DNA of 26,528 bases, from the IMG/VR virus record IMGVR_UViG_3300010413_000960, positions 1 to 26,528 of that record. One strand, written 5' to 3'. The DNA comes from a virus. This document shows, piece by piece, positions 1 through 25,824 of this stretch. A model generated the notes under the pieces. The model was not told where the DNA came from. It saw only the letters and a program-made list of their open reading frames with translations, and ran no database searches. Both the position numbers and the translations under genes were made by a program. Within the stretch, counting starts at the first letter, position 1. Each line of letters starts with the position of its first letter.

Positions 1-737
1 TTGGTGAACTGTTGGGCCTGAGAAGTGGCACCAACCACAGAACCATCAACGTTGAGATAGTTGGCAAGATCAGAATCATAGGCATAAGTAGTGTCAGCGT
101 ATTGGCGATTGACAGCATCACGATCAGCCTGGGGGTCAGCAAGATTAGAAAGGTTGACAGGATTTTGTTGAGCTGTACCATCATCTACAATTACACCAGT
201 AGCACCACGCAGGTAAAGAGAACCATCAGAAATGATGCTGATATACTGGCCAGAATGGATAGCAAGCATCTTTGTGGTGTCAAGTTTGACGTCAATAGGA
301 TCGCCAAGATCAAACTGAATGGAGAACTGTGCAATTACCGTATCGCCAAAGTCTGGATGGTGCCATTTAAGACCATAGTTATCGAACTGACCACCCTCTG
401 TTGCAAAGGTAATGCCAGTTCGGTCGAAGCGCATGTAATCCCAAAAAGTAAGACGGTCGTAGTTAGTCGGTGTGGTATCAACAGTGAGATAGGGTGTACT
501 GTCAGCACCTAAGAGTTGAAAAGCTGTAGCACTCTCAAGAACGGGCAGCTTGAGAACGGCAGTCTGTATACCATTGGTGAATGACTGGATTTGTGATGTA
601 GCGCCAGCAACAGAACCATCTTGGTAGAGATAGGTTGAGTTAGCAACGCTGACAAGTTCATACTGAGCATGTGCATCAACAGCACCTCGGTTGATGAGTT
701 CGGCATGATCGTCAATAACTTTGATAGCTTGTGGCAT
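1..737 (-). CDS. Tail fibre-like protein (3' end cut by window edge)
   Basis: An open frame starts at ATG 737, two bases after the stop of the upstream gene, and runs off the left edge, giving at least 245 residues (MPQAIKVIDDHAELINRG...). It contains NPVNLSNLADPQADRDAVNRQY, cited in part here as the DPQADRDAVNRQY pattern; a 'DP..D.DAVNR.Y' motif is common in repeat regions of phage tail fibres. A motif of the form DGSV.GATSQ.Q.FT occurs twice, about 191 residues apart, with the second copy at the window edge, so the protein is probably built of long repeats. As the last visible gene of the tail operon, it is likely a fibre that contacts the host surface. The identity is inferred from motif and position only. 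The start has just a weak GGTGA upstream and is probably coupled to the gene before it. Confidence 0.75.
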   Translation of the reverse strand, partial: MPQAIKVIDDHAELINRGAVDAHAQYELVSVANSTYLYQDGSVAGATSQIQSFTNGIQTAVLKLPVLESATAFQLLGADSTPYLTVDTTPTNYDRLTFWDYMRFDRTGITFATEGGQFDNYGLKWHHPDFGDTVIAQFSIQFDLGDPIDVKLDTTKMLAIHSGQYISIISDGSLYLRGATGVIVDDGTAQQNPVNLSNLADPQADRDAVNRQYADTTYAYDSDLANYLNVDGSVVGATSQAQQFT

Positions 738-738
738 A

Positions 739-3700
739 TTAGTTCACCGAGTTGGATAGACCGCACGAGCTGGCAGTATGGCTAACCCAGACGTTACCGT
801 CAGGTCGTCTTTGCCATGATGCGACAGCAGTAGAGTTGATGGTAGTTGTATCGCGGATAGTTCCGCTTGCATCTTTAAGGGTGAGAGCGCCAGTTGTGAT
901 GTATGTTTGTGTCTCGTACCAGTCTACAGCATAAATGACGTAATGACGACTAGGATAGATATAGACGTTATAGGGGAACTGATAGAGAACTGTACCTGCA
1001 TTTTCAATAGTCCAATCGCGCATATTGACAGTATTGCCGGAACTATTGTAAAGCTCAATGCACTGGTCGAACACAGGTTCAACCAGACCGTTGCCATTGG
1101 CATCGTCATTGCCAAATGCAACACTGTTGAGGATGGTGCCAAAGACAATAGGGGTTGGTGTAAGTGTAGGGGTTGGTGTTGCCGTAACAGTACGAGTAGG
1201 TGTCGGGGTGGGTGTATTTGTTAGCTCTGGTGTGACAGTGGGGGTCGGTGTATTGGTAGCTACTGGTGTTGGGGTGGGGGTAGCTGTAGGAGGAGGAGAG
1301 AGCCAGTATTGGTTGAAACGATTTTGCCAACAAAGTGCCTCTGCAGGGCTGAGTGTGCCAAATGCTGCGGAGATCTCATAGTAGTCTCCGGTAATAGCAG
1401 AGTCTGTACTATCGGGAATGTTAAGATCGGTGCCAAGCGCCCAATTGGTCGTTGTGCCTGAGGTTGAAAATGTGCCTCTTGTTTCTGTAAAAACATAAAG
1501 CGCGGAGTCAGTATCATCTGCCTCGTGCAAGAAGCAGAAAGGTTCATCAATAGTAATGGCGTTCAATACTTCGATAAACTCGGCGCCACCCACGCGGAGG
1601 TTAGGACCTATAATCTCCATGCGATAGTTTCTGCTGGCAGTAGACCAGACAAGACCGGTAGAGAGGGGATTGACACAACCTGAGATAGTCCATGGTGAGC
1701 CATGACCTGTGAATGTGCCAGTAAGACGATCTCCGGTGTCAAAGAAGATTTGATTGTACCCCTTAGGGCTTAACGCTGCCTGGAAGACAGGCCACCGGGT
1801 AGAGTTGGCATTACTCCATGACTCATTTGTGTTGTACCAGTTGTACCAGTCAACAACCAGATCGGCAGGAGATAGGTCAATGTAATCGGTATCTAGAGAA
1901 CTAAGCATCACCAATGTTTCGCCAGTATCCCAACAAACGCTAGTGCCAGGTGTGGGAATGGCTGTTGGTGTAGCAGTGGGAGTTGCTGTTGGTGTTGGTG
2001 TAGCAGTCGGTGGAATGGGTGTTGGTGTCGGCAATGAGCTGTTGAGTGCGACAATTGTATCTATAAAAGAATCCCAATAGCCGGGAAGGGTGTCCCATGG
2101 GTTAGGTAGATTGTCGTCAGTGGTGTAAAGCCAACCATAGTTACTATCCCATGCCTCTTGTATGGCTGTTTGCATCTGCAAGCTACTGGTCTCGTAGATG
2201 AGGGCAGAGAAGTTGCTAGACGGTGTTGTAGCCATCCATGCAGGAGGTGAGTAAGGATAGAAGTTAGCATAGGTGTTCTCGTAGTAAACATCTATGTCAT
2301 TGATTGCCAGATAAGCGTTTGACGATGGTTCAGTACCATGATTGTGAACAACTTGAAGGCCATAGTTAGTCTTAACGTAGTTGTAGAGCGTTGTGTAGTA
2401 GTTGAATGGTGTGGCCGCTGTACTGGTGCTAACCTCGTCAAAGAAGATACCCGTTACCCAGGTCGAATAAGTTGTAGCCCACATGTCAATGTCGGCGTAA
2501 ACTTCAGAGATGTTGCGGCCGCTATAGTTGGTGCTAACATAGCCGTACATGGCAACATTGCCGCTAGCCAGCTCATTCATACCGGTGGTATGATCGCTAT
2601 TGGGATAAGGTGGGTTGTAAACACCTACTCCACAAACATCACTTTCGCGACCGGGACCATTACACCAGTTAAGAACGGCGATAATGTCAACATCATTGCC
2701 GCGGGCAGAAACATCATCGTAGATGTAGGCGCTCGGGTTATACCAGTTAGGATAGCTGTAGAGTGGTATAAGGACACCCATGTCTCCACGAATAATTGGC
2801 GTAGCTGTTGGTGTTGCTGTCGGCGTTGGTGTTTTTGTTGGCGTATGTGTCGGTGTAGGCGTGCGCGTAGCAGTCGGCGTCAAGGTAGGCGTAGCTGTGG
2901 GGATAGAACCGACCCAAAAATCTTGATTCTCAATCGAACCGTTGAAGAATGTGTAACACGCTGGCCTGACAGCCGGGTAGATAATGGGCTGACTGGTGTA
3001 GGGTGGTGGTAGTGATTGTATGTCAAAACATGATTCACCATCGGGGAGCTGGTTATAGGTATAGACACCAGATGGATTTGTTACAACAGTAGCTACGGCT
3101 GCACCACTAATAGCAATGACAGCCCCTTCAATGCCAGGATCGAGGACATCACAAATGTCGTTACCATCATCGTCATAGCAAACAAAACCTTGTATGCTGC
3201 TTGGCAGTGAAGTAGGCGTAGCAGTGGGGGTAGGGGTGTTAGTTGGTGTAGCTGTTGGTGTACCAGTGGGAGTAGCTGTAGGCGTGCCAGTTGGGGTAGC
3301 TGTGTTTTCTGTTGTAGCAGTTGGCGTTGCTGTCGGCCCCTCATGATAGACAACAAGATAAGGTCTGAAGGTGGATATTTCTTCTCTGGTTGAGTAAGAG
3401 TATTGGACAGCAAAAGCAGTTGTAGGGTCGTTGCGTATGTAGAAACCGTAATTGTTGGCGCCACCATGCCATGCCTGAACCATACTGGTGACATCGGCAA
3501 CAATCCAGCCAGGATAATCACCACTGTTGGTAGGCATGACAAAAGAAGACTCAGAAGCACCAATGTCTGCCGCGCCAAGGGCCATCTGTGATTGCCATGC
3601 TAATGAGCTAGATGCTTGATTGGCTGTAACTTCAGTTTCAACCCAAGGTTTGAGTAACCTGTGGAAGTTAAGCGTCATCACATTGGCATTAGATCGGCCA

Positions 3701-5808
3701 GTAGCATAAATGTGCAGTTCTGCATCATGAACGACATTCCCAGCAGGAATAGAGCTTAGATCAAATTGAATGAGTGATGAGTAAGCCGGATTTGGTCTAA
3801 TCCTCATTACCGTTTGTGTGCCAAAGTTGGTATTCTCATCACCAGCTATATAGTTGCTGATATAAGCATCTTGCAGTGGTGTAATGGTAGCAGCACTCAA
3901 AATGGGTGTTGCTGTTGGTGTAACTGTCGCAGTAGGAGGCGTGCCACCAGGGGTAGGGGTAACAGATGCAGCAGCTAATCTGCCACTCATCGTCTCAATG
4001 TCGCAGAGGATTAAACCTTGATAGGGATCAAGTGATACAGAAGAACTAAGCTTGGCAGTAGAGTAAGGTAGTGCGTAACGATCAGCGGGAATAGTGACAA
4101 TGCGGGGATTGGCAGTTGGATTAACAACGGCAGCTCCATATTGAAAGTATCGAACCCAGGGATCGTTATCAACATTTTGCCATGATGAACTTGTCAGCCA
4201 GTCGCTCATGGGGATGCCGCTGCCATTACGTAGTGGGGCGGTTGTGGGAAAACCTAACCACTTAGCACCATTAGGATCAGTGCCGGGTACACAACGACCA
4301 CTAGGACCACTAAGAGGATCAAAAGTAATCCTGTAGTTGTCATACCATGGTGGTACGGTCAAACCTAACGGCTGCCATGAGAAAAACGAGTTATTGAGTA
4401 GAGTAGATGCGTAATAATACTCTTGCATCTCGGCCTCAGTATCCCAATAGCTATAATTAGAAGACAACAAGTTTTTAGTGCCAAGAAAGACATTTTGTTT
4501 GCCATTCTGATCAAAGTCATAGGCAATTTTTTGCATACAATCCCACTGACAGGCATAAGCGGTGCCATTCCAGTTCTTCATATAACCAAATGGAGGAATG
4601 GTGTAATTACCACCGTCGATGATCTCCATCATGAAACCGTCAACGGATGCCATTTGCATGTAAGTGAGTGGGAAAAGGCCGGTGCTTAATGTGTCAGGCT
4701 CCCACATGCCATTGCCCCAAATACGTATGTCGTTGTTACGCAAACAGGCATAAAGATCGTAAAGGCCATAATTGTTCATCATGTCCTGGCCTCTTTTACC
4801 TTCTTCACCACCGCCAAATTGAGTCTCGTCTAAAGTACCATTATAGTCAGCGTCATGGGGCCATGTGAGGTAAGTGTGAAAATGCTGGACAGCAGCATCG
4901 TCACGAATAAAATCAGCACCATTGGCATTCCACAATGTGGTCAGGAAATTGCAATACCATTCAGTATAAGTATCGTCGCCATTGATACGGTGCGCCTCGG
5001 GGCCATTGTAGTTATTGAGTTGGGGCCATGAGAATGTAAGAGGATGAGGAGTAGCATTTTGATCACACATGCCAAACCCCTCGCCAGTACAGGAAGCAGA
5101 CCAGTTTGTAGGATTTTTATTAGCAGCAAGGTAGTCCCTAATGCGGCGAGAGCACCAGATATCAGACGGATTACAAACGGGTGTAGTTGTTGGAAACGTA
5201 CCAGGAGTAGCCGTTGGTGTTGGTTGAAAATAAGTGGGACTGGTGCCATGCCAACCAGCCTGACCATACGTTTTAAATTGCGTGTGTCCGGCAATACGCA
5301 TGGTGCCAGGGTAGTCGCGTTGGCTTTTCAACCACTGTCCATACGTGCCGCTAGGTACAGGTGTGCCACCAATCGAGGTGACCAGCATCCCCTCATGTTG
5401 AATTTCAACAATATCATACTTTTTGGCATTATTAACGGCAGCAGCGCCAAGAAGGTCGTCAGGAAGATTACTGAGCATCAAAGCATAGATACGAGGAAAC
5501 TCATCGTCAAACTCTGGCAGTCTAGCCGGGGTGGGGGCAAGCGGGGGAACATAAGGTGTACCCCACTTCACTTGACCGGGCCAGAAGGGGGGAGCGTCAG
5601 ACAAGATCATAAAATCTGGTTCTGGTGTAGCTGTAGCAACAAGAGAACGCGCACTTTTTGAAGGTGGTTCTTCTATATCATGGAAAATATTATGCCAACA
5701 CAGATGCCCAAGAGCGATCATTACAAGAACAAAGATGATAAAAACGACCCTTTGTTCTCTACTCAGGTTCAACCACTTTTCTTTGGTGAGGTTCAAAAAG
5801 TTTCTCAT
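739..5808 (-). CDS. Membrane-anchored multidomain glycoside hydrolase-like protein (1689 aa) with Thr-Pro linkers
   Basis: Layout by residue: cytoplasmic start 1-19; one hydrophobic helix 20-38 (signal anchor); a GH-like region of about 65-610 with two calcium-loop-like stretches (DADYNGTLDETQF near 319, DFDQNGK near 431); linker 616-640; DNRLRE-like beta domain 640-825; linker; SdrD-B-like domain 869-967 (CYDDDGNDICDVLDPGIEG); linker; Spherulin-4/GH135-like domain 1008-1256; linker; an unrecognised domain 1291-1503; linker; lamin-tail-like domain 1554-1689. The Spherulin-4 call rests on VLIPLYSYPNW, NGPGR, YGYVSTNYSGR and GIFFDE. D1124 and E1125 match the acidic pair known to matter in GH135, and E1177 (YYENTY) is a candidate third acid. 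Spherulin-4 relatives cleave galactosaminogalactan-type polymers. The protein probably degrades or binds cell-surface polysaccharide. It sits between tail genes, overlaps none, and has a short TAGGG upstream of the start. Whether it is in the virion or displayed on the host is unknown. Confidence 0.85.
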   Translation of the reverse strand: MRNFLNLTKEKWLNLSREQRVVFIIFVLVMIALGHLCWHNIFHDIEEPPSKSARSLVATATPEPDFMILSDAPPFWPGQVKWGTPYVPPLAPTPARLPEFDDEFPRIYALMLSNLPDDLLGAAAVNNAKKYDIVEIQHEGMLVTSIGGTPVPSGTYGQWLKSQRDYPGTMRIAGHTQFKTYGQAGWHGTSPTYFQPTPTATPGTFPTTTPVCNPSDIWCSRRIRDYLAANKNPTNWSASCTGEGFGMCDQNATPHPLTFSWPQLNNYNGPEAHRINGDDTYTEWYCNFLTTLWNANGADFIRDDAAVQHFHTYLTWPHDADYNGTLDETQFGGGEEGKRGQDMMNNYGLYDLYACLRNNDIRIWGNGMWEPDTLSTGLFPLTYMQMASVDGFMMEIIDGGNYTIPPFGYMKNWNGTAYACQWDCMQKIAYDFDQNGKQNVFLGTKNLLSSNYSYWDTEAEMQEYYYASTLLNNSFFSWQPLGLTVPPWYDNYRITFDPLSGPSGRCVPGTDPNGAKWLGFPTTAPLRNGSGIPMSDWLTSSSWQNVDNDPWVRYFQYGAAVVNPTANPRIVTIPADRYALPYSTAKLSSSVSLDPYQGLILCDIETMSGRLAAASVTPTPGGTPPTATVTPTATPILSAATITPLQDAYISNYIAGDENTNFGTQTVMRIRPNPAYSSLIQFDLSSIPAGNVVHDAELHIYATGRSNANVMTLNFHRLLKPWVETEVTANQASSSLAWQSQMALGAADIGASESSFVMPTNSGDYPGWIVADVTSMVQAWHGGANNYGFYIRNDPTTAFAVQYSYSTREEISTFRPYLVVYHEGPTATPTATTENTATPTGTPTATPTGTPTATPTNTPTPTATPTSLPSSIQGFVCYDDDGNDICDVLDPGIEGAVIAISGAAVATVVTNPSGVYTYNQLPDGESCFDIQSLPPPYTSQPIIYPAVRPACYTFFNGSIENQDFWVGSIPTATPTLTPTATRTPTPTHTPTKTPTPTATPTATPIIRGDMGVLIPLYSYPNWYNPSAYIYDDVSARGNDVDIIAVLNWCNGPGRESDVCGVGVYNPPYPNSDHTTGMNELASGNVAMYGYVSTNYSGRNISEVYADIDMWATTYSTWVTGIFFDEVSTSTAATPFNYYTTLYNYVKTNYGLQVVHNHGTEPSSNAYLAINDIDVYYENTYANFYPYSPPAWMATTPSSNFSALIYETSSLQMQTAIQEAWDSNYGWLYTTDDNLPNPWDTLPGYWDSFIDTIVALNSSLPTPTPIPPTATPTPTATPTATPTAIPTPGTSVCWDTGETLVMLSSLDTDYIDLSPADLVVDWYNWYNTNESWSNANSTRWPVFQAALSPKGYNQIFFDTGDRLTGTFTGHGSPWTISGCVNPLSTGLVWSTASRNYRMEIIGPNLRVGGAEFIEVLNAITIDEPFCFLHEADDTDSALYVFTETRGTFSTSGTTTNWALGTDLNIPDSTDSAITGDYYEISAAFGTLSPAEALCWQNRFNQYWLSPPPTATPTPTPVATNTPTPTVTPELTNTPTPTPTRTVTATPTPTLTPTPIVFGTILNSVAFGNDDANGNGLVEPVFDQCIELYNSSGNTVNMRDWTIENAGTVLYQFPYNVYIYPSRHYVIYAVDWYETQTYITTGALTLKDASGTIRDTTTINSTAVASWQRRPDGNVWVSHTASSCGLSNSVN
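1150..1296 (-). repeat. Low-complexity DNA encoding the longest Thr-Pro linker
   Basis: On the plus strand this reads as imperfect GGTGTNGGNGT repeats. On the minus strand it encodes residues 1505-1553 of the multidomain protein, almost entirely T, P, A and V. Four further linkers in the same gene lie at 1945-2031, 2797-2904, 3205-3336 and 3889-3963, with a short one near 5179-5226. Each falls at a domain boundary, so they are protein hinges. Their similarity makes them candidate sites for recombination and domain shuffling. Confidence 0.85.
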
Positions 5809-5810
5809 AA

Positions 5811-7706
5811 CTACCCTACTGTGAAAACGATAATGCCTTCGACAATGTTAGTGGATCCTGTTTGACTGGCATCTGAGCTTGCTACAAAAGAGAGGGTGTC
5901 ACCGTCAGCAACATTGTAAGCGCCTTCGCAGGAAGCTGAAAAATCAAAATTGCCTGATCGCGTATGGGCAAGTACTGAAGCTATGCCAGCAAAACGATTA
6001 GCACCAGCACCAGAAAAGCTATCGGTAATATCAACAAGCGCATCTTGATTTGTAGAGGATAACGCAAACTCGGTACGAATGCTAAGATTAACTTTGAGCA
6101 TAATGTCAAGGCCAAACGTCCAAACACCAGTAGCATAACTGGCAAGCATGGCCGTGTCACCGTCAGAGAGATTGGCGTCAAATGTCCAGGTTAAAGTCGT
6201 GCCACCAGAAGCAATGCTGCTTGCTGCGGTAACGTACCAGACTTCTTTGTATGTATCGACATTGGTACTGCCGACAATAAACCACTGTGTACCATCATAT
6301 TGCCAGATGACAAGGGCGCCAATAGAGAAAAGTTTGACGGACGTGTTTTCGACAGTGAGGGGGTAGGGATTCTCAATCGTAGTTGAGCCGGCAGTGACTG
6401 TCACAATGTTGCGGCTTGTGTCGGTCAACTTAACGCCAAAACGATCATTGGCATTGGGTGAGGTTGGAGCTGTGATTGTGAAGTCACCACCACTGGCGTC
6501 AGCGAGTACAAGGTCACCGACCACAGCCTGATAGGTTGTGTCTTTGACAATAAAGGTGAGTGGGCGTGAGTACGTTGTACTATTGGTAATCAAGCCATAG
6601 TTGCCAAGTGCGGCAAGCAAGTTCTTCTCAGCTTCTGAGAGGGAGACGCCAGTAATAGTCGGCTTGGCGATTGGGCTAGAGCTGAAAAAAGCGAGTTTGT
6701 CTCGCTCGGATTGAATAACTGCGCCGATCATCCTGGCCCATGTGTTGGCGCTATCATCAAAAGTAAACTCGTCGATCAGCTCGCCTTGCGTGGTCTCTAT
6801 ACGGTGCGACTGATCATTGCTGGTCACACGTTGACCACCAGTAAGGGTAGTAGGATGAACGGCAGTAAACCAAGGCCGACCAGTGACAGATAACACAGCC
6901 AACCCATTCCCGGCTGGTGTCTCACCCAATGAAATAGCGTCAGGTTGATTGTAAGGACGTGCGGTGATGCTGCCACGTGATGTGATGTCATCCTGGATGA
7001 TAATGCGGTCAGCGACCATCAAACCGGAGAGAAAAGCATTGGTGAGCGCAATGCCATGGGTATCCCATTCTTCGGGCAGCACTTCAGGAAAGAGGTCTTT
7101 GTAAGACTGTGGCACACCAGTTAGACGACCATAGCGACTCTTCCAGACAGGTACACTGTTCTCAACTGCCCACACGTTGACATTAGGGATGCCGCCACCA
7201 GGGATGCCGCTACTGAGCACAAAGTAGCCGCCACCTTCGTCAAGAACGGTGAGTTGCACAAGCATTGTGTTGTAGGCCGGATAAGCATTAGCTTGTGTAT
7301 TTGCAACAGCCCGGGTAACGTTGTAGGTGTAACCTCCGGCTTCGGACACCTCACCATCATTGTCAATAGAGATGATCTCGTAACCGTCGCGATCCTCAGG
7401 TGGATCGACCGGGTTCATAACACTGTAGTGCTGTAGAGCAACCCAAGAACCGGTCCTAAAGAGCTGAGCACTGACGCGTATGGTCGTTTGTATGTTGTCG
7501 ATGCTATCTAAAAGCCAACATGACGGACCTATATACTGCGCATACGGTAGGCCATCGAGCATAGTATCAACAATCTGCTTGACGACCTCGCCAGTATCAA
7601 TAATACCACCACCTTCGCCGGTAATCTGGATGATGGTAGAGCCACCGCTTTTTGAACCCTGGTAACTGCCGAGGTCAATAGATCGTACAACAGCACGTTT
7701 AGGCAC
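5811..7706 (-). CDS. Tail fibre / receptor-binding-type protein (631 aa)
   Basis: I chose GTG 7706 because GGAG lies 7 bases upstream and the GTG overlaps the stop of the previous gene (AGTGCCTAA). The longer open frame up to 7763 has no such support. The N-terminal part has a Gly-rich stretch (STIIQITGEGGGIIDTGE, about 23-40). Residues about 390-480 (VGDLVLADASGGDFTITAP ... IWQYDGTQWFIV) resemble a beta-rich module often found in phage tail and collar proteins. The last 130 residues (about 500-631) are beta-rich and end in VEGIIVFTVG, which could be a C1q/TNF-like jelly-roll used for receptor binding; that is a tentative fold guess. It follows the tail-tip genes and precedes the multidomain enzyme, which fits a distal tail structural role. 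Exact function is unknown. Confidence 0.8.
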   Translation of the reverse strand: MPKRAVVRSIDLGSYQGSKSGGSTIIQITGEGGGIIDTGEVVKQIVDTMLDGLPYAQYIGPSCWLLDSIDNIQTTIRVSAQLFRTGSWVALQHYSVMNPVDPPEDRDGYEIISIDNDGEVSEAGGYTYNVTRAVANTQANAYPAYNTMLVQLTVLDEGGGYFVLSSGIPGGGIPNVNVWAVENSVPVWKSRYGRLTGVPQSYKDLFPEVLPEEWDTHGIALTNAFLSGLMVADRIIIQDDITSRGSITARPYNQPDAISLGETPAGNGLAVLSVTGRPWFTAVHPTTLTGGQRVTSNDQSHRIETTQGELIDEFTFDDSANTWARMIGAVIQSERDKLAFFSSSPIAKPTITGVSLSEAEKNLLAALGNYGLITNSTTYSRPLTFIVKDTTYQAVVGDLVLADASGGDFTITAPTSPNANDRFGVKLTDTSRNIVTVTAGSTTIENPYPLTVENTSVKLFSIGALVIWQYDGTQWFIVGSTNVDTYKEVWYVTAASSIASGGTTLTWTFDANLSDGDTAMLASYATGVWTFGLDIMLKVNLSIRTEFALSSTNQDALVDITDSFSGAGANRFAGIASVLAHTRSGNFDFSASCEGAYNVADGDTLSFVASSDASQTGSTNIVEGIIVFTVG

Positions 7707-9426
7707 TTGGCAACTCCGGTACTTCAATAGCGTAGGAAACACCTTTGAGTGTGTACTCAGCACCTACATATAAACCACTTAGTGTATTGAGGTCTAATAG
7801 TTGCCACTCGTTAGGTGTGCCAGACAGAGCAATAGCGGGGTTATTACGATAGCTGATAGATGCGTTGACAGACTCGGTAGCATGTTCAAACATCCAGTAA
7901 AGCCAGCGATGTTTTCTAATGAAATAAATAGGACTAAACACAATATCTGGCCTAGCAGCGATAGAAACTTCTGGACGATATTTAACACAAGCTGGATTAA
8001 AAAATCCTGTCTGTGTTACAAGAGTTTGTAAATCATTCATAGCTGAAGCTATGGAAGCTGGGCCACCACCATCTGTTATAAAATCGCCCTTCCCCCATCT
8101 AGGTTGTGGTAAATGAGAAATCCAACTTGTGGGAACATGTTTGGAAGCAGATTCAAAAAGTCCTTCAAAATAAACATGTAAGTTTTTTGGAAGATTATCA
8201 TCTGTTGGTTGATAGATATATCCGTTGATAGTGACGGTATAAAATTGACCGCCAGTTCCATAAGGGTTGTACATTTCACCAACAAAAACAACACTACCAT
8301 CAGATTTTTCGGTAGTATACCATCCGTGTTCATCATTGCGGAGAGAGCGAAAATTTCTTTTTTCCGATCCTATATCCCAGGCATAAATAGGTGTTTCGTC
8401 AACACCACGTTCGCAGTTAATGTAGACGTTCGAGGCAGATTGGGAACCTAACCTTATATGTTCCTCGGCTGCACCATCGCGAAATAAAATAACATCGCCT
8501 GGATGGAAAGCGTGTTGGCAAAATTCACTGATTGTTAACGTTGTGTCGGTCGTGCTGATGCCAGGTGATTTAAGATATCCCCATCCCCAGGAGTCAAGAT
8601 TATTGTTTTCAGATCTAAGTGAAGCGGTGTAAACGCGGTATTCACCAGACCCAGGATATTCCATTCTGAATTGATAGATCAGATCATTGGCATCATTATC
8701 TACTTTAAGAGCAGACGCATAAGCAGCATTAGGTGAATTAAAGTTAATACTTTGTGTTTCATTGTTGACAACACCACCAATGCCTACAAAGCCTGAATGG
8801 GGGGTAGCAAGGGAATCATTAACAGAACTTTGAGCTAATGAAAGATTATTCCATTGTGTGGCTGTTGGTGATGTGCCTATAGCAAAGTTTGGATGTGCAG
8901 AATAACTTTGGCTTGCTCGCTCAGCTATGCCAAGAACAAGAAAGGAATCATCTGCGCCAACAAATTCAAAACCATAAACATCTATGGTGACATAATAAAA
9001 ATTGCCTCTGGTAATAGACCATCCAGTAGAACTTAGTGCAATAGTTCTTGTCTTGGTTGTATTTTGGCCTACTGATTCAGTCCATGTATCAGAGTAAACC
9101 TGTCCGGTCAAAGGATTAACGAGCTGAATACGTATGTTAAGAGCGTCTTCAACTGTTTTTATGTCATAAGTAATCTGAACAGATGGTGTATAAAAAGGAG
9201 CTGGAAAATAGTGATAGATGTAAGCTTTATAAAGCCTTTGCCATGGTCCAGACTGGCTAAATCCCTCTTGTAGGTAGTTCTTTGAGTAACGGTATCCTAT
9301 CAAAAATGGACGCGCAGTATAGACTGCGGAGAACAGTTGTTCTACATTCTCTGCCAAAACATTGAGTTGTGCTTCAGCACTTATAATCTGTCCTGTAGAA
9401 AAAGAGGGTGGTGTTTGAAAGGGCAT
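7699..9426 (-). CDS. Distal tail structural protein, probably fibre or baseplate component (575 aa)
   Basis: The ATG at 9426 overlaps the previous stop (TAATG). The N-terminus reads FSTGQIISAEAQLNVLAENV. The pattern 'F..G..lsA..lN.La.N' recurs at the start of phage tail-tip and fibre proteins and probably forms an attachment helix. The rest is beta-rich with many aromatic residues and no catalytic motif I can recognise. No membrane segment or signal peptide is seen. The DNA is visibly AT-richer than the flanking major capsid region, which could reflect mosaic exchange. Position between the hub-like gene and the next fibre gene supports a role in the tail tip. The family is not firmly recognised. 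Confidence 0.75.
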   Translation of the reverse strand: MPFQTPPSFSTGQIISAEAQLNVLAENVEQLFSAVYTARPFLIGYRYSKNYLQEGFSQSGPWQRLYKAYIYHYFPAPFYTPSVQITYDIKTVEDALNIRIQLVNPLTGQVYSDTWTESVGQNTTKTRTIALSSTGWSITRGNFYYVTIDVYGFEFVGADDSFLVLGIAERASQSYSAHPNFAIGTSPTATQWNNLSLAQSSVNDSLATPHSGFVGIGGVVNNETQSINFNSPNAAYASALKVDNDANDLIYQFRMEYPGSGEYRVYTASLRSENNNLDSWGWGYLKSPGISTTDTTLTISEFCQHAFHPGDVILFRDGAAEEHIRLGSQSASNVYINCERGVDETPIYAWDIGSEKRNFRSLRNDEHGWYTTEKSDGSVVFVGEMYNPYGTGGQFYTVTINGYIYQPTDDNLPKNLHVYFEGLFESASKHVPTSWISHLPQPRWGKGDFITDGGGPASIASAMNDLQTLVTQTGFFNPACVKYRPEVSIAARPDIVFSPIYFIRKHRWLYWMFEHATESVNASISYRNNPAIALSGTPNEWQLLDLNTLSGLYVGAEYTLKGVSYAIEVPELPSA

Positions 9427-11363: not shown

Positions 11364-13775
11364 TTATTCTAGTGGTCCATAGCCACCAACAGAGCCATTG
11401 CTGGCATTGTCATTAGGAGGTGGTAAGTTCTCGTCAAATGGATCTGAACCTTGATTTTTGACTAAATCTTCAAGCCTGGATTTGTAACCGGCAAATATCC
11501 AATCAGCGACAGATTTGCCTATGTCGTTAAATTTGCTTTCCTGTCCGGTAAACTGATCGCCCCAGGTCTTTGAAGCAAATATGCCAAGGTTAGAGCCTGT
11601 CATAGAAGACTCTAACGCTGAAGTGATAGGGTCTTTTTTGCCTACGGCGACCTCAAGCTGGCGCTTGACATCGGCTTTCTTGAAACCTCCAATAAGACCG
11701 GCCTCAGTCAGGCGCTTCATAGCCTCGGCAATGACAGCCTCTTGACCGGCCTCAAACTCCATTTGCTTTTGGAACTCTCGCAAGAAGGCGTCCCAATTGA
11801 TACGCGAGGGATCGGCAAGATTACTAACTGCTTGTTCAGTGGTAGCAGCCCATTGTTTAAGTTGTATTTCCGATCCGGTAAGAATTTCTTGAGGAATCTG
11901 AAGAATACCGGCCCAATCTGGATGTGCGTCAAGCTCGCTAAAACCACGCTCAACAATAGCTTGAAGACGCCTGGCATTCTCCAACGGTGCATCTTCGTAG
12001 ATGCCAGCTTCTGTTAGAGCAAAATCAAATGGTTTTACTTCACGTCCACGTTGAAGGACAGTTTGAATAGTATTTTGTAAACTCTTTAATCTTTGTTCGG
12101 AAGCTCTAGCAGCTTCGCTCTCTAATCTTTCTCGTTCGCGAATAGACTCACGGCGCAAAACGCCTTCTTCAAGAAAGGCATCTTTCCAATTAGAGATATA
12201 AAGGGCTTTACTTGCTTCATCGGCACCCTCTAACCAAAAGTAAAAACCCTCGGCCTGATCTCTAGCTTTGCTATAAGCACTTGTTATTTCGGCTGCGGAA
12301 AGTACATCTTTTTGCGCTACAAGACCTGATAAAATACCACTAAGTGCGCTATCAACTTGTTTTGAGGCATCACTTAAATTCCATGCTGCATCAGCGGTGC
12401 GTTCCATCTCAGTAGCTAACTTTCCGGCAGTACCTTGAGCTTTAGTTAATGGAAAGGCTATACCTTCAGCAGAGTTAGCTGCCGAACTAAGATATTTATC
12501 TAAAGCTTCAGTTTGAATTTGGGCATAATACAATTCACTGTTGCCTTCCATTAGTGCTTGAATGAATGCGGATTGCCATGCGTGATAACGTTCTGCATTA
12601 TTGGCTATATCAGCGGTGCTGGCGCTAGCATCTTTCATTGCTTCAGACAACTCGCCAGGGGCAGCACCTAAAAGTCTTTGAATAAAATGTAAACTTTTAA
12701 TAAGGGGGTTAGCAGCCTGATCGGTTCTATTAAATTCACTTTGAAGACTAATCATGCCACCAGTGGTATTTTGTGTGGCATTAGCAGTATCTCTGAGGGC
12801 ATTGGCTACAGCATCTATAAGACCAGCCTCTTGAACAACTTCACCTATAGCAATCTTTAGGTCTTTGAGTGCTATTTGAACTTCGCCAAGACTGCGAGCA
12901 TACTGAAGGTTTTGCCCACCTAGACCCTCGGTGAATGTGTCAGCTTCAGCAAGCACTGCATTCATAGTGGCAATACGGCGCTCGTATTGGTCTAATTCAT
13001 CAGATGATTTACCTATACTTGCAGCATATTCTTCGACAGCATCACCAAGCTTAATGTAGATGCTGGCATTGTCAATAAGTCTGGGTTCACCACGGCTGAT
13101 ACCATCGATCAACGTCTTGAAAACGTAATCTGCTTTTTCACCAGTGGCTGCGGCGGCTGCTATGGATATCTCTAGTAATCGTGGCAAATTTCTTGCCATT
13201 TCTTCGCCAACGGCAAGCAAACCACGGTTGGCAACACGCATTAAATCTGTTTCGTGTATATAGCCTGCGGCAGTTGTTCTTAGATCGCTAAGTAATCTAT
13301 TAGAAGAAATGCCGTATGAATCAGCAAGAGATAAAAATGATGATTCTACAGATTGGTTGACAGCAGCTAATTGAGATGCTTCAGTAATGTATTGTGATAC
13401 CTGACGGACAGCAAAGGCAGCGGTGAAGCCAGCTATAGAACCACGGAGCAAGTTAAATGAACCTGTAGCGCGTGTATTGGTATTAGAAATATTGCTAAGC
13501 TGCCTGTCATACCCCTTTAATGAATTGGTGAGGTCTTCTGTTTGTCTGCGTGCGGCAGCAAGACGCGCTACGTCTTGTGTGCTTACTATAGTGCCAGGCT
13601 TTAACCCAAATAAATTGCCTGACTTTGCCCTAAACCCAATATCAAACGCATCGGCCAGCTCCTTATCAAGGACTTTAGCCTGAACGGCTGCATCCTTCAT
13701 TAAGCTGTTGAGCAAATTGATATTTTTGGAAAACTGATCTTGGACCAGGATATCTATGTTAACGTTATTTGCCAT
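11364..13775 (-). CDS. Tail tape measure protein (803 aa)
   Basis: It sets tail length and acts in DNA ejection, occupying the lumen of the tail tube. The sequence is long, Ala-rich and mostly helical, with many AA/LA repeats and a hydrophobic stretch near residue 108 (GSIAGFTAAFAV). It lies directly after the chaperone genes, as in nearly all long-tailed phages. I chose ATG 13775 (MANNVNIDIL) because TGGAG lies about 10 bases upstream; an ATG 24 bases further upstream is also possible. The first 11 bases overlap the end of the frameshifted chaperone ORF. By the usual rule of about 1.5 angstrom per residue, the tail would be about 120 nm. No lysozyme or peptidase motif is visible. Confidence 0.9.
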   Translation of the reverse strand: MANNVNIDILVQDQFSKNINLLNSLMKDAAVQAKVLDKELADAFDIGFRAKSGNLFGLKPGTIVSTQDVARLAAARRQTEDLTNSLKGYDRQLSNISNTNTRATGSFNLLRGSIAGFTAAFAVRQVSQYITEASQLAAVNQSVESSFLSLADSYGISSNRLLSDLRTTAAGYIHETDLMRVANRGLLAVGEEMARNLPRLLEISIAAAAATGEKADYVFKTLIDGISRGEPRLIDNASIYIKLGDAVEEYAASIGKSSDELDQYERRIATMNAVLAEADTFTEGLGGQNLQYARSLGEVQIALKDLKIAIGEVVQEAGLIDAVANALRDTANATQNTTGGMISLQSEFNRTDQAANPLIKSLHFIQRLLGAAPGELSEAMKDASASTADIANNAERYHAWQSAFIQALMEGNSELYYAQIQTEALDKYLSSAANSAEGIAFPLTKAQGTAGKLATEMERTADAAWNLSDASKQVDSALSGILSGLVAQKDVLSAAEITSAYSKARDQAEGFYFWLEGADEASKALYISNWKDAFLEEGVLRRESIRERERLESEAARASEQRLKSLQNTIQTVLQRGREVKPFDFALTEAGIYEDAPLENARRLQAIVERGFSELDAHPDWAGILQIPQEILTGSEIQLKQWAATTEQAVSNLADPSRINWDAFLREFQKQMEFEAGQEAVIAEAMKRLTEAGLIGGFKKADVKRQLEVAVGKKDPITSALESSMTGSNLGIFASKTWGDQFTGQESKFNDIGKSVADWIFAGYKSRLEDLVKNQGSDPFDENLPPPNDNASNGSVGGYGPLE

Positions 13776-14525
13776 TAGAGGCCATCTCCAAAAAATCAAT
13801 TGCCCTGAGAGGGTGCATAGGCCCTAATTTATCTTCAATTTTTCGCGGCGAAATAGATTCGGCCAAAATAATAGATTGAGCGGCAGTAAGCTTATTTCCT
13901 TCAGTTGGTAAAGGCCACTGACCGAACCTGTCTAATAAGATAAATTTGGTACGCGCCGCACCCCTTAACCGAAAGGGAGCAAGTTGATCTCAGAAAGATA
14001 AACAGAAACTTTTTCAAGGATAGCTGTGCGTACTCGAGGCGATAATGCGTTAAAGTCAACTGGCTTACCGTCAGCATCTTGCAACAGTTTTTGAGCCATG
14101 TAAGTGTTGCGATAACGGCCGACATGTTCATCTATGATGGATGTTGCACTGGTGCGTTTCTCCAACAAGGAGTACAAGCGTTCCATGCGCTCGTCCCAAT
14201 ACTTAACAAGTTCGGGATTGTCTTCCTCGGCAATAAGCGCCTTGTGCTGAAGTTTAGCCACGCTTTTGAGAGCTTCAACTTCTTCTGCAGGAGCTGGTTG
14301 CTTGGATAACGCTACAACATCATCGCGCAGAGCGACTGTTCTGGCTTCAATGGAACAGAGAAGTTCAACATCGTTCATTTCCTCTGGTGTAGGTGGGCGT
14401 AAGTAGAACTGTCGCCCACCTACTTCAAAGTACATACCAAGACCATTGACATGATCGCTGAGTGAGACTGCCGGCTTTTGATACTCGGGTAAATCGAGGA
14501 TCGTTTCTTCTCCTTTTTTCGTCAT
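13765..14525 (-). CDS. Tail-assembly chaperone, long form made by -1 frameshift (GT-like)
   Basis: This is the lambda gpGT-like product. Ribosomes start at ATG 14525, read to the CCCTTTC heptamer (13977-13971), slip back one base and continue in the -1 frame. The result is 185 residues of the short form plus 68 more, ending at TAA 13767-13765. The extension begins RLRGAARTKFILLDRFGQWP and ends RAIDFLEMASNGK; it is fully open although no initiation codon suits it. The stop overlaps the tape measure start by 11 bases. In characterised phages the short form binds the tape measure and the long form recruits tail tube subunits. Neither form is usually in the virion. Confidence 0.8.
13948..13977 (-). 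promoter_or_regulatory. Programmed -1 ribosomal frameshift element
   Basis: The minus-strand heptamer C-CCT-TTC (13977-13971) fits X-XXY-YYZ in the correct zero frame. It is followed by an 8-base spacer that contains the zero-frame TAA, then a 6-bp hairpin with a 3-base loop, GGTGCG-GCG-CGTACC (13962-13948, one G-U pair). Slippery site, spacer of about 8 and downstream hairpin form the usual set for programmed -1 frameshifting. Confidence 0.8.
13965..14525 (-). CDS. Tail-assembly chaperone, short form (gpG-like, 186 aa)
   Basis: It begins at ATG 14525, overlapping the stop of the tail tube gene (TAATG), and ends at TAA 13967-13965. The sequence contains FEVGGRQFYLRPPTPEEMND (near 33-52) and is then mostly helical. 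The order tail tube, chaperone, tape measure is strongly conserved in long-tailed phages, and this gene carries a slippery heptamer two codons before its stop. The short form should be made in excess of the frameshifted form. Sequence similarity to chaperone families cannot be confirmed by eye; position and frameshift signal carry the call. Confidence 0.85.
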   Translation of the reverse strand: MTKKGEETILDLPEYQKPAVSLSDHVNGLGMYFEVGGRQFYLRPPTPEEMNDVELLCSIEARTVALRDDVVALSKQPAPAEEVEALKSVAKLQHKALIAEEDNPELVKYWDERMERLYSLLEKRTSATSIIDEHVGRYRNTYMAQKLLQDADGKPVDFNALSPRVRTAILEKVSVYLSEINLLPFG

Positions 14526-24085: not shown

Positions 24086-24545
24086 TGATCTCGCTCTCTC
24101 TGTTTAGAACGGCTTCAGGACTCTCACCACTGGCAAGACGCTTGAGCTGCTCCGTGGTCATGTTGGCGTAGTCAATACGCGTCAGGTTGATAGTCGTGCC
24201 ATTGTTGATGTCATAACCCCTTCCCTTACCCTGCGTGCGAAGGAAAAAGATGGTGGCCTGGGTGTTGCCTGACAATGACTGGTTGTATAAGCTGTCCTCA
24301 ACATGGTCTATGCGCGACTCTCGAACGTCTTCAAGGTACTCAGTCAAGTAGCTGTTGCCTCTCACACGCCGGTCAACAAACTGGCGCCCTACGCCAAGGC
24401 GTCTCGCAGCAAGAGCAAGGTTGCCACGAGCGTGCAAAATGGCGTCAGCAATCTGCGCGTCCGTGACATCAACGCGGTCAGGCATCTTGCGGTAAGCAAG
24501 CGTCGCCTTCTCCGGCACCGGTGGTAGTTTAGGTTTGCGTGACAT
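24057..24545 (-). CDS. terS: Terminase small subunit (162 aa)
   Basis: It recognises phage DNA for packaging and feeds the large subunit. I chose ATG 24545 (MSRKPKLPPVPEK), with AGGAA nine bases upstream, over TTG nine bases further up. Residues about 27-60 (VTDAQIADAILHARGNLALAARRLGVGR, cited as a region) form a helix-turn-helix: 'A...L.V.R' of the terminase small subunit type. The C-terminal half is helical and acidic. It overlaps the large subunit and follows the methyltransferase gene by overlap, which fits co-transcription. Confidence 0.85.
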   Translation of the reverse strand: MSRKPKLPPVPEKATLAYRKMPDRVDVTDAQIADAILHARGNLALAARRLGVGRQFVDRRVRGNSYLTEYLEDVRESRIDHVEDSLYNQSLSGNTQATIFFLRTQGKGRGYDINNGTTINLTRIDYANMTTEQLKRLASGESPEAVLNRESEIIDVEYSDPG

Positions 24546-25818
24546 AAGGTTCAATTCCTGTTGTTTGGTGGAAACGTTCTAACGCGGCGGCAGCAATTCT
24601 CGGATCTCGCTCCACACCATAAGCAACGCGCTCGCGGCGATGGGCGGCTAAGATGGTGGTGCCAGAACCTGAGAAGGGGTCAAAGACCAACTCACCAAGA
24701 CCGGTGTACATACGTATGTAACGCTCCGGCAGCTCCAAAGGGAAAGCGGCGACGTGCTTGCCTCCCACATAAGGGTCGTTGGTCAAATCGTCCCAAATGC
24801 CCAAGAGGGGCCACGGCTCTTGCAGGAACTGACGACCACGCTGATCACCAGTAGGGGAGTAGAACGTTGCTAGGTAGTCCCAATCTATGCTGTCGTGCGT
24901 GTAAAGGGCCAGGTGCTCAAAACGCTGTTCCATAAAGTCGGCCTTGCGGCTCACCTTCTTAGGGATAGTAGAATGCTTGTTCCAAATTCGCAGGTGACGT
25001 AAAAGCCAACCTTGCTCGCGCAAGGCGTTTGTCCACTTGTCCACAAGTAGCAACTGCTCCATGGGCCTATGCTTGTCAATGCGGTGCAAACTGCCCAAGC
25101 CCGTGTTGATGACCACACGCGTGTTGTCTGGCGCGATTACCCCCATCCAGGCTTGAACTGCGGTTTTGACAAAGTTGTCTATCTCGGCCAAGTTCTGCTC
25201 ACTCTCATACTCCTTGCCCAACCAGTAAGGGGGCGAGGTAAAGAGTAGATTCGCCACCCGACCGCTAGCCTGAAGGGGGGGCAGTATGGCGTCTGTTGTC
25301 GAAGATCCGATCAGTAGCATGTGCGGGCCAAGTTGCCACAATTGCCCATCGGCAGTACCCCACTTCTCGCGGTAGTGGTCGAGATCAGCTAAGAGCACTG
25401 GCGAGTCCTCAGAGACAGGCGGGCGGTTCGATGCCTCTATGTCGCGGAGAGACTTGAGATCGGAAGCGTCAAAAAGGTAGCTGGATTCTTCGGTGAGCCG
25501 TTCCTCGAGGGCCTCTATGTCCCAAGCCAAGCCAAGCTCAGCAGAACGGTTGTCCGCTATAGATAGCTCCTGCGCCTCCGGATCGTTGAGAAGGTCTAAG
25601 TCGCGGCGCTTGACCACAACCAACGAGGAACCATCTGTCTCTACCTCTACAGTTGGCCCGTCCCACTCAGAGTAGGTCTTGTTGCCAGCTATGATGTAGC
25701 CTTCCTTGTCTACAACAATAGAACGGCCAGCACGAAGACGCTGAAGGGAACGACGAACAGCCTCTCGACCTTCAGGTGTACCACGATTGGCGTTATTAGG
25801 GTCTTGTTTGTATGTCAT
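24529..25818 (-). CDS. ParB-like domain fused to class-beta DNA methyltransferase (429 aa)
   Basis: Residues about 8-110 resemble the ParB-like N-terminal domain of phage methyltransferases (GRSIVVDKEGYIIAGNKTYS, ELSIADNRSAELGLAWD). The methyltransferase half has motif IV TSPPYW (194-199), motif X-like KHVAAFPLELPERYI (354-368), motif I FDPFSGSGTT (379-388) and GVERD (401-405). Motif IV before motif I marks the beta class; SPPY suggests N4-cytosine or N6-adenine methylation, not resolved here. It probably protects phage DNA from host restriction or marks it for packaging. ATG 25818 has no ribosome-binding site; a promoter places the predicted RNA start on that ATG, so translation may be leaderless. 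The gene overlaps the small terminase gene. Confidence 0.9.
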   Translation of the reverse strand: MTYKQDPNNANRGTPEGREAVRRSLQRLRAGRSIVVDKEGYIIAGNKTYSEWDGPTVEVETDGSSLVVVKRRDLDLLNDPEAQELSIADNRSAELGLAWDIEALEERLTEESSYLFDASDLKSLRDIEASNRPPVSEDSPVLLADLDHYREKWGTADGQLWQLGPHMLLIGSSTTDAILPPLQASGRVANLLFTSPPYWLGKEYESEQNLAEIDNFVKTAVQAWMGVIAPDNTRVVINTGLGSLHRIDKHRPMEQLLLVDKWTNALREQGWLLRHLRIWNKHSTIPKKVSRKADFMEQRFEHLALYTHDSIDWDYLATFYSPTGDQRGRQFLQEPWPLLGIWDDLTNDPYVGGKHVAAFPLELPERYIRMYTGLGELVFDPFSGSGTTILAAHRRERVAYGVERDPRIAAAALERFHQTTGIEPYVTQT

Positions 25819-25824
25819 GCTCAA

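Follow-up and report, generated by a model that had tools for sequence, protein, structure and literature searches.

Where would a phage use a Spherulin-4/GH135-like domain that is encoded among its tail genes, on the virion or on the infected cell? The question is raised by one gene of the window, which is the whole 26,528-base IMG/VR virus fragment IMGVR_UViG_3300010413_000960. The open reading frame starts with an ATG at position 5808, preceded 5 bases upstream by AGGG, and encodes a large protein with several domains joined by Thr/Pro-rich linkers. The gene begins 2 bases past the preceding stop codon and its end is separated from the next gene by 1 base, all three genes being on the same strand. 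The features of the region are listed in Table 1.

Table 1. Tail-region genes of the window and the parts of the Spherulin-4 protein.
Feature	Coordinates	Strand	Basis
Tail length tape measure protein, five genes upstream	11364..13799	(-)	phrog_1107, E 3.4e-6; phrog_167, E 1.6e-5
Upstream gene, 650 aa, tail module, between tape measure and Spherulin-4 genes	5811..7763	(-)	phrog_8859 (unknown function), E 1.5e-11
Multidomain Spherulin-4 protein, 1689 aa	739..5808	(-)	ORF list and translation
N-terminal hydrophobic segment, about residues 21-43, predicted signal anchor	5680..5748	(-)	Hydropathy
Region of no recognised family, residues 61-620	3949..5628	(-)	Null searches
CBM96 carbohydrate-binding module, residues 639-820	3349..3894	(-)	Pfam PF24517, E 8.4e-16
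SdrD_B-like domain, residues 872-928	3025..3195	(-)	Pfam PF17210, E 1.1e-5; 26.0 bits, below the cut-off of 29.7
Spherulin-4 (PF12138, GH135-type) TIM barrel, residues 1008-1256; D1124, E1125, E1177	2041..2787	(-)	Pfam, PDB, AlphaFold
Region between two Thr/Pro linkers, residues 1285-1500	1309..1956	(-)	No Pfam match
Lamin-tail domain (LTD), residues 1572-1657	838..1095	(-)	Pfam PF00932, E 8.5e-9; 36.2 bits, cut-off 34.3
Downstream gene, 245+ aa, runs off the contig; fibre-like repeats	3..737	(-)	Sequence; sub-threshold T7 tail-fibre match, E 0.029

The close same-strand neighbours and the tape measure gene upstream bear out the tail-operon location given in the original prediction. The region upstream of the tape measure gene encodes capsid, protease-like, portal, terminase and methyltransferase proteins; a fused ParB-like and DNA methyltransferase protein is encoded at 24529-25824, beside the terminase genes. 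In the downstream gene (3-737) the motif DGSVxGATSQxQxFT is repeated, and this gene is probably the start of a fibre protein. The GC-content of the Spherulin-4 gene is 0.475, as against 0.41-0.50 in the five upstream genes. A recent foreign insertion is unlikely, since the composition matches that of the tail genes. Because the gene abuts same-strand neighbours and has a tail-like composition, it is most likely part of the late operon.

The family assignment could be confirmed. The motifs VLIPLYSYPNW, NGPGR, YGYVSTNYSGR and GIFFDE, on which the original prediction was built, are all present in the minus-strand translation of 2041-2787, and the plus strand of this segment is interrupted by stops. 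The predicted residue numbering, including D1124 and E1125, proved exact. The Pfam Spherulin4 profile matched residues 1012-1252 with an E-value of 5.7e-35 and 121.4 bits against a cut-off of 30.2, covering profile positions 2-239 of 239. A phmmer search of the PDB returned only the two entries of Sph3, with E-values of 1.5e-16 and 2.1e-16. The AlphaFold model of the domain, run with 17 viral relatives in the alignment, has a pLDDT of 90.6 and a pTM of 0.90 and shows eight strands in barrel order. This confident TIM barrel superposes on Sph3, which was the top Foldseek match (E 2.1e-16, TM 0.80). A missing barrel would have refuted the original prediction, and the prediction stood up to this check. 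The structural aligner (VIA) gave a Z-score of 27.1 to both 5d6t and 5c5g over 228 residues with 30% identity; the next-best chain, a chitinase-type barrel, reached 15.9.

In the phmmer alignment, D1124, E1125 and E1177 are the counterparts of D166, E167 and E222 of Sph3, so the two acidic residues proposed as hallmarks are joined by a third. In the model, strand 4 ends at D1124, and E1177 belongs to strand 6. E167 of Sph3, the counterpart of E1125, is taken here to be a catalytic acid. The catalytically inactive variant of Sph3 is D166A (PMC8546845), and for the role of E222 a structural paper of 2025 prints the pair Asp196/Glu222 (PMC12054363), where Asp196 is probably a slip for 166. The domain of the window is thus a member of the Spherulin-4 family with an Sph3-type barrel and all three acids kept, and it would act as a GH135-type hydrolase, for which endo-alpha-1,4-N-acetylgalactosaminidase activity is predicted. 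Sph3 of Aspergillus clavatus (GH135; PDB 5c5g, 5d6t) shares with it the family, the barrel and the D, E, E triad, but is a fungal enzyme of galactosaminogalactan synthesis, whereas the window protein is phage-encoded, multidomain and 1689 aa long. Sph3 degraded re-N-acetylated Pel and not native Pel (PMC9135694). The substrate suggested for the window domain is extrapolated from the fungal enzyme and may differ in so distant a relative.

The triad is kept in most viral domains, the window domain included. The first acid is lost in the viral protein L007 (D to Y), the second-acid position is occupied by R in L018 and in copy 1 of L022 (E to R) and by A in L020 (E to A), and L108 has Q in the triad. 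Such replacements suggest that some viral Spherulin-4 members may only bind; the window domain does not appear to be among these. It is very unlikely that its barrel merely grips a polymer as a non-catalytic sugar-binding module, a possibility to which the losses in L007, L018, L022 copy 1 and L020 lend some weight, given that the window domain keeps all three acids in a confident Sph3-like barrel. L007 (3745-4806), the nearest viral relative of the window domain, carries GIFFYE instead of GIFFDE and has no export signal. Two Spherulin-4 copies occur in one viral protein in L022 (9839-12910) and in L024 (9038-10588); in L022, copy 1 reads FFDR, with the acid lost, and copy 2 reads FFDE, with the acid kept, which suggests one binding and one cutting copy.

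The 1689-aa protein opens with MRNFLNLTKEKWLNLSREQR, which is positively charged; next comes a long hydrophobic stretch, and after that an acidic one. The hydropathy of the segment is the highest among the genes of the window, 2.41 over 19 residues and 3.62 over 12 residues, and none of the other genes starts in this way. By the positive-inside rule, the segment would be an N-in/C-out signal anchor, and one long hydrophobic segment with the remainder outside is the predicted layout of an exported, anchored protein. Hydropathy was compared among 43 cellular and 27 other viral Spherulin-4 proteins over the part that precedes the domain, to a maximum of its first 90 residues, with a threshold of 2.0, which was reached in 33 of the cellular proteins and in two of the viral loci: Virus Rctr41k (3.29) and one at the threshold. 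The window protein scores 3.62 in this comparison. L127, a viral locus identified afterwards, likewise begins with positive charge and a hydrophobic stretch (2.59), before sequence that resembles a fibre.

The other recognisable parts point in the same direction. With CBM96, the SdrD-like domain, the LTD and the Thr/Pro linkers, the protein looks like one that bacteria secrete to their surface and unlike an ordinary tail fibre; Pfam and PHROG searches found no tail-fibre family in it. Residues 61-620 have no relative in Pfam, the PDB, phages, viral contigs or genomes, and a single-sequence structure model of this region was uninformative (pLDDT 29.8). One weak Chloroflexota match to the N-terminal region was lost on realignment. 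Residues 1285-1500 gave no Pfam match at E-values up to 1. The third acid, the N-terminal segment and these additional domains go beyond the original prediction.

Starting from the computed features (family, fold, acids, operon position, N-terminal hydrophobic segment and recurrence in phages), we infer export, catalysis, substrate, timing and benefit as follows. The late tail operon of the tailed phage would give rise to a very large protein of several domains, the Sec pathway of the host would export it, and the N-terminal helix would keep it in the host membrane. Flexible Thr/Pro linkers would hold out the carbohydrate-binding module and the Spherulin-4 barrel, and the barrel would probably hydrolyse, late in infection, an alpha-linked N-acetylgalactosamine-type (or close amino-sugar) polymer of the envelope or matrix of the infected cell. 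The benefit may be that progeny are freed from the matrix, or that rebinding of progeny, or the binding of rival phages, is blocked. The best reading of the locus is thus an amino-sugar polymer hydrolase that is made late, exported by Sec and anchored in the membrane of the infected cell, and we give it about an even chance of being right.

The main rival, in line with the original prediction, is a virion-borne depolymerase of the tail fibre or baseplate, which would cut a surface polymer before infection and use the helix for attachment or assembly; we consider it rather unlikely, and it draws on comparative evidence. A tblastn search found the domain in two GenBank phages, Virus Rctr41k and Rothia phage Spartoi, and three alignment-based scans of IMG/VR gave 31 loci (19, then six new and six new), with a few near-duplicates among them. 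A viral structure library contains matches from Rctr41k and Spartoi, along with several entries that bear the name 'Spherulation-specific family 4'. Viral contigs were also scanned with one protein sequence at a time (domain, portal, N-terminal region or Rctr41k domain) and gave no match, and the mention of GH135 in an Exiguobacterium phage paper was a false text match. A subset of the loci was checked for tail sequence within the protein or a tail gene close by, and over a third of the viral cases showed such evidence (L008, L010, L012, L013, L015, L017, L018, L020, L022, L023, L024, L110 and L111). Some phages have the domain in one chain with tail-fibre or minor-tail sequence, and in others its neighbours are genes for tape measure, central fibre J, baseplate or fibre proteins. 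Spartoi gp21 and the proteins of L008, L013, L015, L017, L022 and others resemble the window protein in being encoded near or within tail genes, but Spartoi gp21 and the tail-associated IMG/VR proteins lack an export signal; several carry tail-fibre or minor-tail sequence and many belong to a separate, all-viral clade of 14 members. The majority of viral Spherulin-4 proteins lack a signal and have the look of virion components, and the survey turned up few phage cases with export. In L014 (10001-10648, near a helicase gene) and L131 (9872-10609, near a ribonucleotide reductase gene), Spherulin-4 proteins of about 215-245 aa stand alone, without a signal, in a non-tail setting.

The window gene shares with these phages its position between tail genes, and a virion protein could also carry such an N-terminal helix. 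Against a place on the virion stand the strong signal anchor, which is absent from 25 of the 27 other viral members, and a domain set that is that of a secreted bacterial surface protein, with no recognisable tail-fibre or attachment domain. The original prediction of a phage depolymerase thus holds for family, fold and acids, and a role in the tail is doubtful. Its view that phage use of the domain would be unusual did not hold: many phages carry the domain, often in or beside tail-fibre, baseplate and tape-measure genes, and viral cases were published in 2021. Phage use of Spherulin-4 is recurrent and in part already published; what is unusual is that a tail-operon protein should have the make-up of an exported and anchored one.

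The published cases come from a study of Atacama soil viruses, which described three viral Spherulin-4 proteins with a mean length of 1265 aa and suggested a role in sporulation (PMC8269230). These 'Spherulation-specific family 4' proteins are large and viral, as in the window, but were read there as sporulation genes; one of the viruses was linked to Actinobacteria and Chloroflexi (PMC8269230). Apart from the family name and this suggestion, a stress or sporulation function finds little in the window protein, for which it is scarcely credible: the characterised member of the family is a glycoside hydrolase (PMC12054363), and a role on surface carbohydrates suits both the place of the gene and the domains of the protein. 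The sporulation-gene reading of Spherulin-4 in viral metagenomes is probably wrong.

The nearest parallel is APU89257.1 (KX853513), a putative lipoprotein encoded by Virus Rctr41k. It has a putative export signal, Thr/Pro linkers and a Spherulin-4 domain, and its gene directly follows tape-measure and tail-fibre genes, which is the same slot as in the window. The two proteins differ in that APU89257.1 has an FSAC lipobox instead of a signal anchor, a beta-helix-like N-terminal half and a domain 33% identical to that of the window; CBM96, SdrD-like and LTD domains, present in the window protein, were not found in it by Pfam. In the part of Rctr41k that was compared by tblastn, no other window gene had a match. 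Rctr41k encodes an integrase-like protein, and this, with the exported multidomain make-up, would suit lysogenic conversion, in which a surface protein made by the lysogen alters matrix, adhesion or a phage receptor to the benefit of the host. Such a role is distinctly unlikely: tight same-strand packing in the tail operon favours expression late in the lytic cycle, shuffled sequence gives as many promoter-like matches as the region does, and no integrase is seen in the window, which is a partial record.

The search for the host of the window phage did not single one out. The terminase gave two weak matches to phage records and one weak match to Chloroflexota, the capsid protein gave matches of 26-34% to phages of very different hosts, and the window holds no tRNA. 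The Thr/Pro linkers suggest a Chloroflexota host; however, PF12138 occurs in only 6 of 400 Chloroflexota genomes, and for this reason no host is claimed. DNA of Rctr41k is present in a Chloroflexota bin as contig L071, with 99.8-100% identity, and an 8-kb stretch of Rctr41k structural genes found only short repeats in that bin; the L071 match is weak host evidence for Rctr41k. Compared with Rctr41k (L002, 12079-15357), the 4-kb contig has about 760 extra bases between two matching blocks.

The origin of the domain was studied in a tree of 73 Spherulin-4 domains, in which the bootstrap is not fully settled and exact placing is tentative. The all-viral clade is supported at 100/99, and the window domain lies outside it. 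Its partner is L007 (91/88), and the pair belongs to a group of mainly bacterial proteins (90/91), neither branch passing the strict threshold; this placing counts in favour of the exported reading. The viral label requires at least seven changes on the tree, three of which are forced by strongly supported branches, so the domain crossed between phages and cells more than once. Secreted bacterial Spherulin-4 proteins (e.g., L026, L030 and L068) are among the nearest to the window domain. Cellular Spherulin-4 proteins have, in most cases, a hydrophobic export segment before the domain, as in the window protein, but are mostly short and single-domain, unlike the latter.

It is possible, and is put forward tentatively, that some tailed phages use their tail operon to build on the infected cell a membrane-anchored polymer hydrolase that acts outward and whose capture from secreted bacterial proteins was separate from that of the tail-fibre versions. 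The usual place to look for phage depolymerases is the virion. If such exported, cell-displayed depolymerases exist, virion proteomics and tail-based searches would miss them, and they would offer a route to study release from, and protection within, the biofilm matrix. Spherulin-4 itself is a recurrent, little-noticed tail-associated phage domain with intact and catalytically degenerate members. Among the cellular proteins, that of L117 (229-2175, Chloroflexota genome G282) combines a protein-kinase-like domain, a transmembrane segment, a Ser/Thr-rich linker and a Spherulin-4 domain with intact acids, and is possibly a receptor kinase sensing a sugar polymer.
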